Assembly (NCBI RefSeq): GCF_002161445.1
Contig: NZ_NFHT01000004.1
Coordinates: forward strand, 62,001-126,000
Length of the DNA stretch: 64,000 nt
Reading direction: 5' to 3'
Source: Alistipes sp. An66
GTDB lineage: Bacteria; Bacteroidota; Bacteroidia; Bacteroidales; Rikenellaceae
Every line of letters starts with the position of its first letter. The stretch's first letter is position 1. Of the stretch, positions 54,638 through 57,999 are shown piece after piece. The notes under the pieces are model-generated. The model did not search any database and was not told the DNA's origin. It saw nothing but the letters and a program-made list of their open reading frames with translations. Made by a program: the position numbers and the translations under genes.

Positions 54638-54868
54638 ATGAAAGTCAAATTGAATCGAGAGGTCCCGGTTCTCTACCTCAAAGGTAGCGAGGAACTCGGG
54701 CGGGCGACAGGCGTCACCAGCGAGAAGACGCACGCCTTGTGGCGGCGATCCGGACTCAAATACCTCGTCATGGGCGACGGGACCTTCCTCTATGATCCGC
54801 GGGAGGTGACGAAATTCCTGGATCGCTTCTATGCCCCGCAGCAGCTGAAAGCGTCGTTGCAGCCATGA
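54638..54868 (+). CDS. Small HTH protein (excisionase/MerR-like)
   Basis: 76 residues. ELGRATGVTSEKTHALWRRSGLKYLVMGDGTFLYDPREVTKFLDRFY reads as a winged-helix DNA-binding fold of the excisionase type. It overlaps the next gene by 4 bp. Could direct excision with the recombinase at 60101 or serve as a regulator. Confidence 0.65.
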   Translation: MKVKLNREVPVLYLKGSEELGRATGVTSEKTHALWRRSGLKYLVMGDGTFLYDPREVTKFLDRFYAPQQLKASLQP

Positions 54869-55149
54869 TCGCATCCGAAGTATATCATAGCCGATGGAGT
54901 GACGATGAGACGCTCCGCCTGTTCGAAATGGTTGCGAACGGTAAAACGCGCGATGAGATCGCGACGGCTCTCGGTCGGACGCGGAATGCCGTGGTCTTCA
55001 AACTTGCACGGATCAAGCAGGATCCCGAGCTGATGAAGCTATATGCCGAACGTCGGGGTTTTGTCGAGAAACGGACCCGTCTCGAAGAACAGCGTCGCGG
55101 GCTCGATTGTATGCCGAACCCTTTCCGGTTCGTGCGCCCTGAATGGTAA
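54865..55149 (+). CDS. Myb/SANT-like small DNA-binding protein
   Basis: 94 residues. WSDDETLRLFEMVANGKTRDEIATALGRTRNAVVFKLARI is a clear SANT/HTH pattern with the conserved Trp, like GcrA-type or phage 'SANT' proteins. Co-translated with the preceding gene. Confidence 0.7.
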   Translation: MIASEVYHSRWSDDETLRLFEMVANGKTRDEIATALGRTRNAVVFKLARIKQDPELMKLYAERRGFVEKRTRLEEQRRGLDCMPNPFRFVRPEW

Positions 55150-55167
55150 TTGCTAATTGACTGGAAT

Positions 55168-55626
55168 ATGAAACGCGAAGAGGAGAAACGAATCATGGTC
55201 GTCGACATCGACGGGACAATCTCCGAAGTGGGATTGCGGCGCCGTCGGTTGCTCGAACAGTTCCCGGTAGACTGGGAGGCCTTTTATCGGGACAATTTCG
55301 ACGATCTGCCCAAACGAGACGTCTGTTCGTTCGTGCAGTTCAATGCCCGACGGATGGAGGTGTTCTTCTGCACGTCGCGGCGGGAGAGCGTGCGCGACAA
55401 GACGCAGAAGTGGCTCTTGCGGAATCTGGGGATGCAGCCTCGGGACTATACGCTCATCATGCGCGAGAACAGCGACGAGAGGCCCGAGCACATCCAGAAG
55501 CTCGACCAGTTCTTCCGGGAGACGACCGAGGAGGAGCGTCGTCGGGTGCTGTTCGTTGTCGAGGATGACAAGACCGTGGCCCGGATGTGGCATCAGAAAG
55601 GTTTCACCTGCTTTGTCGTAAGATAG
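55168..55626 (+). CDS. PNKP-like phosphatase (HAD superfamily), phage-type
   Basis: 152 residues from ATG 55168. Motif I VVDIDGTISEVG, motif II FFCTSRRES, and a C-terminal VLFVVEDDKTVARMWHQKGFTC (motif IV). This fits the phosphatase half of polynucleotide kinase/3'-phosphatase; no kinase domain is present. It may repair nucleic acid ends during infection. An alternative TTG start exists at 55150. Confidence 0.75.
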   Translation: MKREEEKRIMVVDIDGTISEVGLRRRRLLEQFPVDWEAFYRDNFDDLPKRDVCSFVQFNARRMEVFFCTSRRESVRDKTQKWLLRNLGMQPRDYTLIMRENSDERPEHIQKLDQFFRETTEEERRRVLFVVEDDKTVARMWHQKGFTCFVVR

Positions 55627-55628
55627 CC

Positions 55629-56519
55629 ATGGAAGGGTGGATCAAGATACACCGCGGCCTGCTGGACTGGGAGTGGTACTCCGACACGAACTGCGTGCGG
55701 ATGGCGCTGCACCTGCTGCTGATGGCGAACTTCCAGACGAAGCGCTGGCGGGGGATCACCGTCGAGCGGGGCCAGCTCGTCACGAGCCGGTCGATTTTGG
55801 CCCGCGAAACGGGACTTTCCGAGCGGGAGGTGCGGACGGCGATTTCAAAACTTGAAAAATCGGATTTTCTGACCAGCCGTGCGACCAGCTCCTATACGAT
55901 CGTAACGATCTGTAATTACGAAAAATATCAGTCGCCCGAAACGGTCGAGCGACCAGCCGTCGGACCAACGGACGACCAGGATGCGACCAACTGCCGACCA
56001 GGCGTCGACCAGCCAGCGACCACAACTGAAGAATGTAAGAAAGTAAGAAGAGAAGAATACACACACACGGTAGGTTCTGAAAAGGGGGTTGTAGGGGGAA
56101 AACCGGACGAGGCTCCGGCGGAGCTGGTCGAGGCGGCCGATGCGTTGCAGGCGTGGATCGGCGAGCGCTTCCCGAAGATCGCCACGATGGCAGAGCCCTT
56201 CACGCGGCAGCAGCTGCTGTGGATGTTCCGCAAGTACGACGTCGAGGACATCCGGCGCATCGTGGCGGCAATGGACAACAAGGGAGCCTGGAAGAACCGC
56301 AGCGCCTTCTGCACGTTCACCTCCTATGCCGCCCGGGATCACGAACTGCAGACACGCCGTCAGGCCGAGGCCGAATGCGGCCGGTTGTACACCTACCTGC
56401 AAATGGTGCAGATGCTCCCGACGAACGGCGGCCTCTACCGGGCGGAGGATTTCGAGACGGTCCAGACGCCGCAGGGGGTCCGCTGGCGGATCCGCGCGCT
56501 GAATCAGATGGTGAATTGA
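55629..56519 (+). CDS. Phage replication protein (DnaD/O-type initiator-like)
   Basis: 296 residues from ATG 55629. Winged-helix N domain (IKIHRGLLDWEWYSDTNCVR...LARETGLSEREVRTAISKLEK), a poorly conserved linker, then a helical C domain (QLLWMFRKYDVEDIRRIVAAMDN) resembling DnaD-like/replication initiation C-terminal repeats. Bacteroides phages carry such 'replication initiation' genes in this position. No helicase loader or DnaC-like gene follows directly. Confidence 0.75.
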   Translation: MEGWIKIHRGLLDWEWYSDTNCVRMALHLLLMANFQTKRWRGITVERGQLVTSRSILARETGLSEREVRTAISKLEKSDFLTSRATSSYTIVTICNYEKYQSPETVERPAVGPTDDQDATNCRPGVDQPATTTEECKKVRREEYTHTVGSEKGVVGGKPDEAPAELVEAADALQAWIGERFPKIATMAEPFTRQQLLWMFRKYDVEDIRRIVAAMDNKGAWKNRSAFCTFTSYAARDHELQTRRQAEAECGRLYTYLQMVQMLPTNGGLYRAEDFETVQTPQGVRWRIRALNQMVN

Positions 56520-56523
56520 CAAA

Positions 56524-56605
56524 TGGATCGGCAGGGCCTCCGCGCCGGCGGAGGATGCCAACGGCCTGTTGCAGCCGTTGCCAGGGTTCGACTCCCGGCG
56601 ATCCG
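56524..56605 (+). ncRNA. tRNA-like cloverleaf element between phage genes
   Basis: An 82-nt stretch folds by eye into four stems: acceptor GGATCG / CGATCC (56525-56530 with 56599-56604, plus a T-G pair), a 7-bp arm CCTCCGC / GCGGAGG with GCCG loop, a 7-bp arm CAACGGC / GCCGTTG with loop CTGTTGCA (GTT in an anticodon-like place), and a T arm with the loop TTCGACT that fits the tRNA consensus. But the D- and anticodon-like arms are longer than in tRNA, the T stem has one mismatch (A-G), and no CCA follows (GCA). So a true tRNA is doubtful; a tRNA mimic or decayed tRNA is possible. Confidence 0.5.
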
Positions 56606-56630
56606 CAAACCAAACCAAACATCGAAAAAC

Positions 56631-57473
56631 ATGAATGCAAACGCAACACCAGAACCCCTGGATCAGGAGGTACAGACCCGTTACAGCGAACTTCGGGGAC
56701 TGGCCTATTTGCCGGAGGATATGCTCGGGCTCTACGTGGCTGCGCCGCTCAAGCGGAAGTGGTCGCAGGAACTCTTCGACGACGAAACCGGCGAGGTTAT
56801 CTCCGTCGACCGGAGCGAGCTGATCGCGGCCGCCGGTACGAAGATCGACGACGACCTGCTGACCCGCATCCAGTTCCACCTGCAGGCCGGCGATATCACG
56901 TGTGTCGAGGTGACGAACCAGCTGCGGCTGGGCGAAGAGCGTGCGGCCTATGGGCTGATCCCGTGGAGCGTGACGGCCCTCATCGGCAAGAAGCGCCGCA
57001 AGTTGCTGCTCTATGCCGATTCGGCACGGATGGCCCTCGACGTGGCCAAAGACTGGATCGAGCTGAACTGCTCGGGACCGTTTCACATTGTCGGCCTGAA
57101 GATGTTCGACCACTGCGTCTTCATCAAGGAGCCGCAGAAAGAGGTCGATCCGAACGAGTCGGCTGAGGAGCAGGACGGCGAGGCTCCGGAGTTCTACAAG
57201 GTCGAGGTGGCCCTTCGCTATCGCGACACGGGCACGACCCGCAACGACACGTTCGTCCTGCTGACGAAGGATGTGGATACGGCGGCGACGGCTATCCACG
57301 ACTGGATCGTTCATGATGTCCGCAACAACCCGGATCTGGACGACGCCCAGAAGGCCGCCGCCCTCGATTTCGATCTGACGGTTATCTCCGGGGTGACGAT
57401 TCCCTGCTACGGCTTCATCGAGCGGGAGTTCTCAGAGGTCTACTACGCGCATCGCCCGAACGGGCTCGAGTAA
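56631..57473 (+). CDS. Prophage protein of unknown function
   Basis: 280 residues from ATG 56631 (MNANATPEPLDQEV). Mixed alpha/beta sequence without a recognisable motif; an acidic linker (PNESAEEQDGEAPE, about 189-202) separates two domains. No membrane segment. Lies between the tRNA-like element and the next gene, 1 bp apart from it. Confidence 0.6.
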   Translation: MNANATPEPLDQEVQTRYSELRGLAYLPEDMLGLYVAAPLKRKWSQELFDDETGEVISVDRSELIAAAGTKIDDDLLTRIQFHLQAGDITCVEVTNQLRLGEERAAYGLIPWSVTALIGKKRRKLLLYADSARMALDVAKDWIELNCSGPFHIVGLKMFDHCVFIKEPQKEVDPNESAEEQDGEAPEFYKVEVALRYRDTGTTRNDTFVLLTKDVDTAATAIHDWIVHDVRNNPDLDDAQKAAALDFDLTVISGVTIPCYGFIEREFSEVYYAHRPNGLE

Positions 57474-57474
57474 G

Positions 57475-57999
57475 ATGGGCCGGCAGATTCACCACACGAG
57501 TCGCTGCCTGGGGCGAGAGTTCACCTTTGAGGAGTGGGGCGCCTATCTGAAGGCGCATCCGGATGCCGGCGGCGAGATTGTGCACTCAAGTCCGTACGGA
57601 TTCGGGTTCAACCTCTTCGATGTCTGCCTGAATCCGAACCGTCCCGTGGCCGTCGAGTCGCGCCACGGAAGGTTTGAGGTCCACACGGCCCGGTCCGACA
57701 ACGGACGATGGGAATCCGGTTACTCCGTCCGGCTCGATACTTCGCGGGGGCGTAGCCACCCGTGCGGGTTTGTCGATTGTGCGCAGGCGGGCTATCCGTC
57801 GGAGAACGAAGCCATCCGCGGCGCTCTTCGCGAGATCCGCGAGGTGGCCGAGGAGGAGATCCGTCTGCTGGATCGCTACCGGGACCGACTGCCGGAGGGT
57901 GGCAGCTATGCGACGATCCGCCACTCGTTGACAGGAGTTACCCGGCTGATCGACGACGAGATTCGCCGGTTCACCTTTGTTCAGCTGGCGCTGTTCTGA
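57475..57999 (+). CDS. Prophage protein of unknown function
   Basis: 174 residues with no domain I recognise. Two Cys in the first half (SRCLGRE and FDVCLN), C-terminal helical part (NEAIRGALREIREVAEEEIRLLDRY). Co-transcribed with its neighbours. Confidence 0.6.
   Translation: MGRQIHHTSRCLGREFTFEEWGAYLKAHPDAGGEIVHSSPYGFGFNLFDVCLNPNRPVAVESRHGRFEVHTARSDNGRWESGYSVRLDTSRGRSHPCGFVDCAQAGYPSENEAIRGALREIREVAEEEIRLLDRYRDRLPEGGSYATIRHSLTGVTRLIDDEIRRFTFVQLALF

Follow-up and report, generated by a model that had tools for sequence, protein, structure and literature searches.

A tRNA-like cloverleaf between early genes of an Alistipes prophage, its scattered phage relatives, and a possible role in mRNA processing

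Results

A tRNA-like cloverleaf lies between two prophage genes

The window, i.e., the whole 64-kb stretch of DNA analysed here, carries a tRNA-like cloverleaf at 56524-56605. In agreement with the preliminary description, the element is placed in a gap of 111 nt between two plus-strand genes. It begins 5 nt past the stop codon (56519) of a gene for a DnaD-like helicase loader and is followed by the ATG (56631) of a gene for a 280-aa protein. The reading frame of the latter also contains an upstream ATG (56523), but 56631 is taken as the start because the match to phrog_35807 begins at residue 12 of the shorter protein. Searches with this downstream protein returned only its own phage, plus chance matches of 20-30 bits to a protein of ~1270-1310 aa, presumably an RNA polymerase subunit. 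On its other side, the dnaD-like gene directly adjoins a gene for a HAD-type polynucleotide-kinase (PNK) 3′ phosphatase (window 55150-55626, PF25109, E 1.3e-14), an arrangement also seen in locus L129 (8469-8933). The features of the locus are as follows.

55629-56519, plus strand: upstream gene, DnaD-like helicase loader, 296 aa (phrog_2514, E 1.8e-24)
56524-56605, plus strand: tRNA-like cloverleaf (direct sequence reading)
56525-56530, plus strand: acceptor stem, 5′ strand GGATCG, 6 bp (sequence, fold; pair 3 differs on both sides in L654b)
56531-56533, plus strand: 5′ strand GCA of the mini D stem, ahead of loop GG at 56534-56535 (sequence; recurs in alignment A3)
56537-56554, plus strand: 7-bp hairpin CCTCCGC-GCCG-GCGGAGG inside the D loop (fold; L654b retains it, with one pair changed on both sides and one to G.U)
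56556-56558, plus strand: mini D stem, 3′ strand TGC (fold; paired with GCA in the cmsearch alignment)
56559-56580, plus strand: second arm, in anticodon position, CAACGGC-CTGTTGCA-GCCGTTG, 7 bp, 8-nt loop (sequence, shuffle P)
56582-56598, plus strand: T arm CAGGG-TTCGACT-CCCGG, 5 bp, consensus T loop, one A.G mismatch (sequence)
56599-56604, plus strand: acceptor stem, 3′ strand CGATCC; G 56605 in discriminator position (sequence, model alignment)
56606-56630, plus strand: A-rich leader ahead of the next start codon (homology to genome G229 stops at 56612)
56631-57473, plus strand: downstream gene, 280 aa (phrog_35807, E 8.5e-48)

All features named in the preliminary description are in place, and the four-stem cloverleaf is the RNAfold minimum-energy structure (-44.5 kcal/mol, z -2.57, 3 of 200 shuffles equally good). 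The antisense strand folds even better (z -4.43), so energy alone cannot choose the strand. No pairing past 56524/56605 appears in a 120-nt fold, while T 56524 could form a T.G pair with G 56605 as a possible extra acceptor pair. The T loop TTCGACT conforms to the tRNA consensus TTCRANY, no CCA is encoded 3′ of the acceptor, and a GTT is found in the 8-nt loop, as previously noted. With regard to the two over-long 7-bp arms of the earlier account, the second arm is confirmed (shuffle P = 0.001 for the window copy with both ends anchored), whereas the other is an insertion into the D loop that forms a hairpin. Canonical tRNA has linkers at positions 8-9 and 26, a variable loop, a D stem of 3-4 bp with a longer loop, and a 7-nt anticodon loop. 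In contrast to tRNA, the arms of the element meet at a nearly linker-free junction, with a single C between second arm and T arm, and the second-arm loop CTGTTGCA is not usable as an anticodon loop.

Homologues retain the stems by paired changes

A second genome of the genus, G229, contains a copy (L130) beside a 96%-identical dnaD-like gene. Three changes occur in 81 nt: GTT becomes GTC in the second loop (now CTGTCGCA), one linker position differs, and the T-stem mismatch is replaced by a C-G pair. The second arm of this copy gives an anchored-stem shuffle P of 0.002. Homology between the two loci extends over a blastn block from 54638 to 56612, thus breaking 7 nt after the element, and the next block starts at 57487. 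In place of the 280-aa gene, G229 encodes a Dam-type methylase (PF02086, E 3.2e-19).

A third, more distant copy (L654b) resides in a Mu-like prophage of genome G044 that has both a Mu-type transposase gene (phrog_310, E 5e-91) and a gene for a transposition ATPase (phrog_296, E 3.2e-51). The same element subtype is thereby present in two unrelated phage types, that of the window and G229 and the Mu-like type of G044. Since alignments A1 and A4 misalign the arms, these were set by hand for the pair count, which comprises 25 pairs spread over the acceptor, the hairpin in the D loop, the second arm, and the T stem. Relative to the window, L654b shows four both-sided changes, five one-sided changes, one mismatch that is now paired, 15 identical pairs, and no broken pair. 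All five one-sided changes convert C-G or G-C to G.U. Such pairs hold only in plus-strand RNA, which speaks against a cruciform in DNA and against an RNA from the antisense strand. The acceptor has its paired change at pair 3, the T stem displays two both-sided changes together with a C-G pair at the A.G mismatch of the window, and the second-arm stem is kept with two G.U changes around a loop that differs from that of the window. The one stem that L654b does not retain is the mini D stem, where the 3′ strand is not TGC. Of the compensating changes that had been proposed as a check, those on both sides of a pair fall in the acceptor, the D-loop hairpin, and the T stem.

Taken together, the locus is well supported as encoding a plus-strand RNA that copies the acceptor/T-arm half of tRNA and its elbow (T loop and GG-bearing mini D loop). 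As judged from the sequences compared, the anticodon position of this mimic is occupied by a freely varying hairpin.

Related elements recur in prophages and viral contigs

Another genome of the genus, G042, carries three elements, two of them in tandem, near its own dnaD-like gene. In each, a 6-bp acceptor abuts GCA-GGAT-TGC or ACA-GGAT-TGT, and a long-looped second arm and a T arm follow. Scanning 510 loci (3.83 Mb) for acceptor plus T arm yielded 89 candidates uncalled by ARAGORN, among which a zero-linker mini D arm with a 4-nt GG loop occurs only in the three G042 elements and in viral contig L176. A shared build, in which a 6-bp acceptor directly adjoins a GCA-GGWT-TGC mini D arm and is accompanied by a T arm and a varied second arm, is present in at least ~20 viral contigs. 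In the viral scan with GCAGGNNTGC, 16 of the 82 distinct matches listed have, after filtering, a 6/6 acceptor flush to the mini D arm; the count covers loci L532-L647 and leaves out matches in L140 and L229. With re-dealt strands, such acceptors averaged 1.31 (max 6), and shifting the offset by 1-3 nt left 0-3. The scan with GCAGGATTGC produced 6/6 flush acceptors in 4 of 33 distinct matches against a re-dealt mean of 0.15. Here, the count derives from loci L135-L531 with G042 loci L257, L265, and L266 dropped, and may include genome loci L255 and L382. From the 82 listed matches, we took the 16 with 6/6 pairing plus L629 and L553 (5/6), and left out L566 (an ARAGORN tRNA-Lys), L601, L588, and L562, which are also 5/6. 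ARAGORN calls none of the 16 flush-acceptor viral elements, and Rfam at gathering thresholds reports 45 ordinary tRNAs in 15 of these loci, none of them at an element.

Alignment A3 was built from 25 members, with the window and G229 copies left out. Its mini D arm follows the GCA-GG-TGC design in 24 members and ACA-TGT in the remaining one. Across the alignment, pairing holds in 99.1% of cells, both-sided changes affect 11 of 14 pairs, and covariation scores 0.858 versus 0.06-0.19 for slid partners; this covariation is partly built in, because acceptor pairing, D motif, and inner T stem were selection criteria. Pairing of the second arm was unselected, and an anchored stem at shuffle P < 0.05 is found in 11 of the 25 members, while 14 fail this strict test. 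The window element has GCA-GG and TGC as well. Unlike the GGWT loop, its mini D loop holds an 18-nt hairpin. The window element probably belongs to a scattered group of phage tRNA mimics.

Several candidates were excluded from A3. L513, L522, L526, L528, and L530 are ordinary tRNAs in our reading, GCAGGAT being their acceptor, L512/L229/L140 resembles a tRNA 3′ half, and flush pairing in L516 reaches just 4/6 (5/6 with a bulge). The matches listed for our first, loose patterns were mostly tRNA-Ser, other tRNAs, and chance.

The viral members include two sets.

Set one, AGGCGTCA-loop set (10 members): L533, L539, L553, L557, L558, L626, L629, L636, L643, L646
Set two, between protein genes: L537, L565, L567, L570, L576, L585, L623, L627

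In set one, the second-arm hairpin has the loop AGGCGTCA on varying stems, and A plus CCA directly follow the acceptor in 8 of the 10 members. L626, L636, L643, and L646 lie ~10 nt or less from a real tRNA gene, in phage tRNA arrays. In set two, the upstream genes begin alike in several members, and those of L623 encode a PD-(D/E)XK/Cas4-type exonuclease and a phrog_870 protein. In six members, the second-arm loop is a run of G (GGGGGGAAG, GCGGGGGT, GGGG), and similar runs are frequent in the leader of the gene that follows (AGGGGGAAA, CGGGGGAAA). Perhaps the G-run loop imitates a ribosome-binding site in the anticodon's place. Elements with G-run loops are:

L537, 6993-7055
L567, 7532-7589
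L570, 7108-7169
L576, 746-801 (minus strand)
L585, 3643-3700
L623, 7887-7946

In two related contigs, an element precedes phage csrA (L523, 551-608; L524, 12941-13000, minus strand). The csrA gene downstream of the L523 element matches PF02599 (E 1.1e-18), and the two acceptors differ by a compensatory change (CGCGGT/GCCGCG versus CACGGT/GCCGTG). DNA comparison of the window element, the G042 region, and three viral members with GenBank phages gave no match.

The element differs from tRNA and other known RNAs

Covariance model R1 was made from A3 and hence contains neither the window nor the G229 (L130) sequence. It ranks the window element first in the 64-kb window (25.5 bits, E 1.2e-6; next 12.0 bits) and scores the G229 copy at 32.1 bits. 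A search of 180 genomes from the genus added three further credible sites, of which two belong to G044 (25.8 and 25.3 bits) and one to G320 (23.1 bits); under the stricter filters of this search, the window's own copy (G000) was not reported. In 393 Bacteroidales genomes, R1 found no further member, the 20 loci read being judged as 12 ARAGORN tRNAs and 8 loci without the full architecture. R1 candidates without a T arm (e.g., L653, L658, L662, L687, and L688) or called as tRNA were discarded. Ordinary tRNAs obtain 24-29 bits from R1, so the model demonstrates tRNA likeness but not separateness from tRNA. The latter rests on ARAGORN, RF00005, and anatomy.

ARAGORN finds no tRNA gene in the window, and Rfam at its thresholds nothing for the element. 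In covariance scans, as recommended in the preliminary description, RF00005 lists 46 places in the complete genome (3.05 Mb, E ≤ 10), none of them at the element; R1 detects it. A tRNA has a 5-bp stem, a 7-nt anticodon loop, and a conserved anticodon, where the element has 7 bp, 8 nt, and a triplet that differs in L130. In a comparison with 29 distinct host tRNAs from 30 loci, the best score is 27 (shuffled element: mean 18, max 25), and the common ground is the T-arm consensus only. Canonical tRNAs and phage tRNA arrays share T arm and acceptor with the mimic, and some viral members with ACCA sit inside such arrays; the mimic differs by the missing anticodon loop and linkers, a 3-bp D stem, and a 6-bp acceptor.

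The tRNA-like domain of tmRNA and mascRNA combine acceptor and T arm with a reduced D arm and no anticodon. In contrast to tmRNA, the mimic has no tag frame, and the host encodes its own tmRNA. The mascRNA-menRNA model RF01684 reaches 13.7 bits (E 5.4), below its gathering score of 42.5. Like the element, YrlA mimics the D, T, and acceptor arms of tRNA (PMC8394870), and a bacterial Y RNA is reported in mycobacteriophages (as cited in PMC12282133). Unlike YrlA, the window element has no long basal stem joining 5′ and 3′ ends; among the members looked at, L176 alone seems by eye to extend its stem. An Rsr/TROVE gene was found in none of 16 genomes or records, of which the virus records may be fragments, and the Deinobacterium control was positive. 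Missing TROVE gene and missing basal stem exclude a Y RNA identity within these tests. Allo-tRNAs and other irregular tRNAs are noncanonical cloverleaves, some in mobile contexts (PMC7609411), but have an 8/4 or 9/3 build with an anticodon, as opposed to 6/5 without anticodon in the window element. In the loci tested, the family is not matched by Rfam 15. No published account of mini-D-arm phage tRNA mimics was found by title or abstract, a weak negative with subscription literature mostly outside the search.

Discussion

A possible tRNA punctuation of phage mRNA

The canonical T arm and acceptor, together with stems kept by paired changes, uphold the earlier proposal of a tRNA mimic. In our best explanation, to which we give about an even chance, this phage mimic would be cut from early mRNA by RNase P and RNase Z, a putative "tRNA punctuation". 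Transcribed within the early operon, it would be taken for a pre-tRNA. RNase P would cleave it on the 5′ side, 5 nt beyond the stop codon of the dnaD-like gene, and RNase Z or exonucleases would trim the 3′ side, thereby setting free a stable tRNA-like RNA and leaving the downstream gene with a short, open 5′ leader. Structure, strand, paired changes, recurrence, and placement are documented above; from there on, we infer transcription, cutting, the enzymes involved, and the importance of cutting.

From acceptor end to start codon, the distance is 26 nt in the window, 16 in G229, 32 in G044 (where the first element is uncertain), 21 in G320, and 24 and 21 in G042. Viral members outside arrays mostly lie 21-50 nt, some up to 71 nt, ahead of script-chosen starts. 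With the element edges near stop and start, cutting on both sides of the acceptor would divide the mRNA neatly at the boundary between genes. Tight gene packing in phages weakens this argument, since it puts any intergenic element near a start codon. RNase P usually meets a 12-bp stack of acceptor and T stem. Against cutting, the window copy has no CCA, and its 6-bp (or 6+1) acceptor results in an 11-bp stack.

According to PMC11143913, acceptor, T stem, and T loop are a sufficient model substrate of RNase P, which also cuts mRNAs and the phage M3 and C4 RNAs. We liken the mimic to these phage RNAs by its putative processing only. In mitochondria, tRNA structures between coding sequences serve as processing marks (PMC8601606). 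Mitochondrial punctuation uses working tRNAs, whereas the phage case would involve mimics and putative cleavage. More tentatively, and on balance doubtfully, many phage kinds might share anticodon-less mimics as RNase P/Z processing marks that provide each gene with a short leader; the freed mimic may have a second purpose, and the varied second arm (AGGCGTCA loop, G runs) might carry phage-specific functions.

Alternative readings

Two alternatives are comparably unlikely. The mimic could act as a decoy, a minority reading that would fit elbow features that are retained next to a freely varying anticodon position. The PNK-type 3′ phosphatase gene just upstream of the dnaD-like gene is in line with it, and the element-bearing G042 prophage also encodes a relative (37% identity), but no match to the phosphatase exists in the G044 locus, and no defence gene is tied to the element. 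We keep the decoy reading because YrlA has been suggested as a possible competitive inhibitor of anticodon nuclease (PMC7790460); lacking a conserved anticodon loop, however, the mimic would offer such a nuclease nothing to cut.

An uncut, cis-acting structure in the 5′ leader, by which translation or decay of the downstream gene would be controlled or insulated, is improbable to a similar degree. Positions mostly 16-50 nt ahead of a start codon, and csrA following in L523 and L524, agree with such a role. Array members with encoded ACCA have no such gene adjoining, the downstream genes are unrelated, and a regulator would not need a perfect T loop.

We hold a DNA-level element, with palindromes marking a recombination border for gene-cassette exchange, to be quite improbable. 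The end of window-G229 homology 7 nt past the element, with a different gene next, and the same subtype in two unrelated phage types would suit a cassette border, but five one-sided changes pair only as G.U in plus-strand RNA, and a DNA site has no use for a perfect T loop. A remnant of tRNA-Asn drifting without function, once suggested by the tRNA-like T arm and acceptor and the GTT in the loop, is very improbable, as GTT is GTC in L130 and the loop differs in L654b, homologue changes keep or repair pairs rather than wear them, and the similarity of host tRNA-Asn is confined to 11 T-arm nucleotides (score 12 versus a shuffled mean of 18).

Implications and further observations

tRNA mimics are known in isolated cases, such as tmRNA, YrlA, plant-virus ends, and mascRNA. 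If tRNA punctuation by mimics is true, a dispersed, anticodon-less phage family would add a further natural class to the substrates of RNase P/Z, with cut sites predictable to the base. It could explain separate transcripts from packed phage operons and would imply that tRNA finders miss one kind of phage RNA gene.

In two loci, long gaps between or beside elements (L129, 5060-5480; L654, 1590-1745) contain many small palindromes and no clear gene, and may hold further structured RNA. Further, two isolate-derived phage contigs carry related 67-nt tRNA-like elements (L146, 6233-6299; L249, 3253-3319), which display a canonical acceptor and T arm with an aberrant D/anticodon part and are uncalled by ARAGORN.
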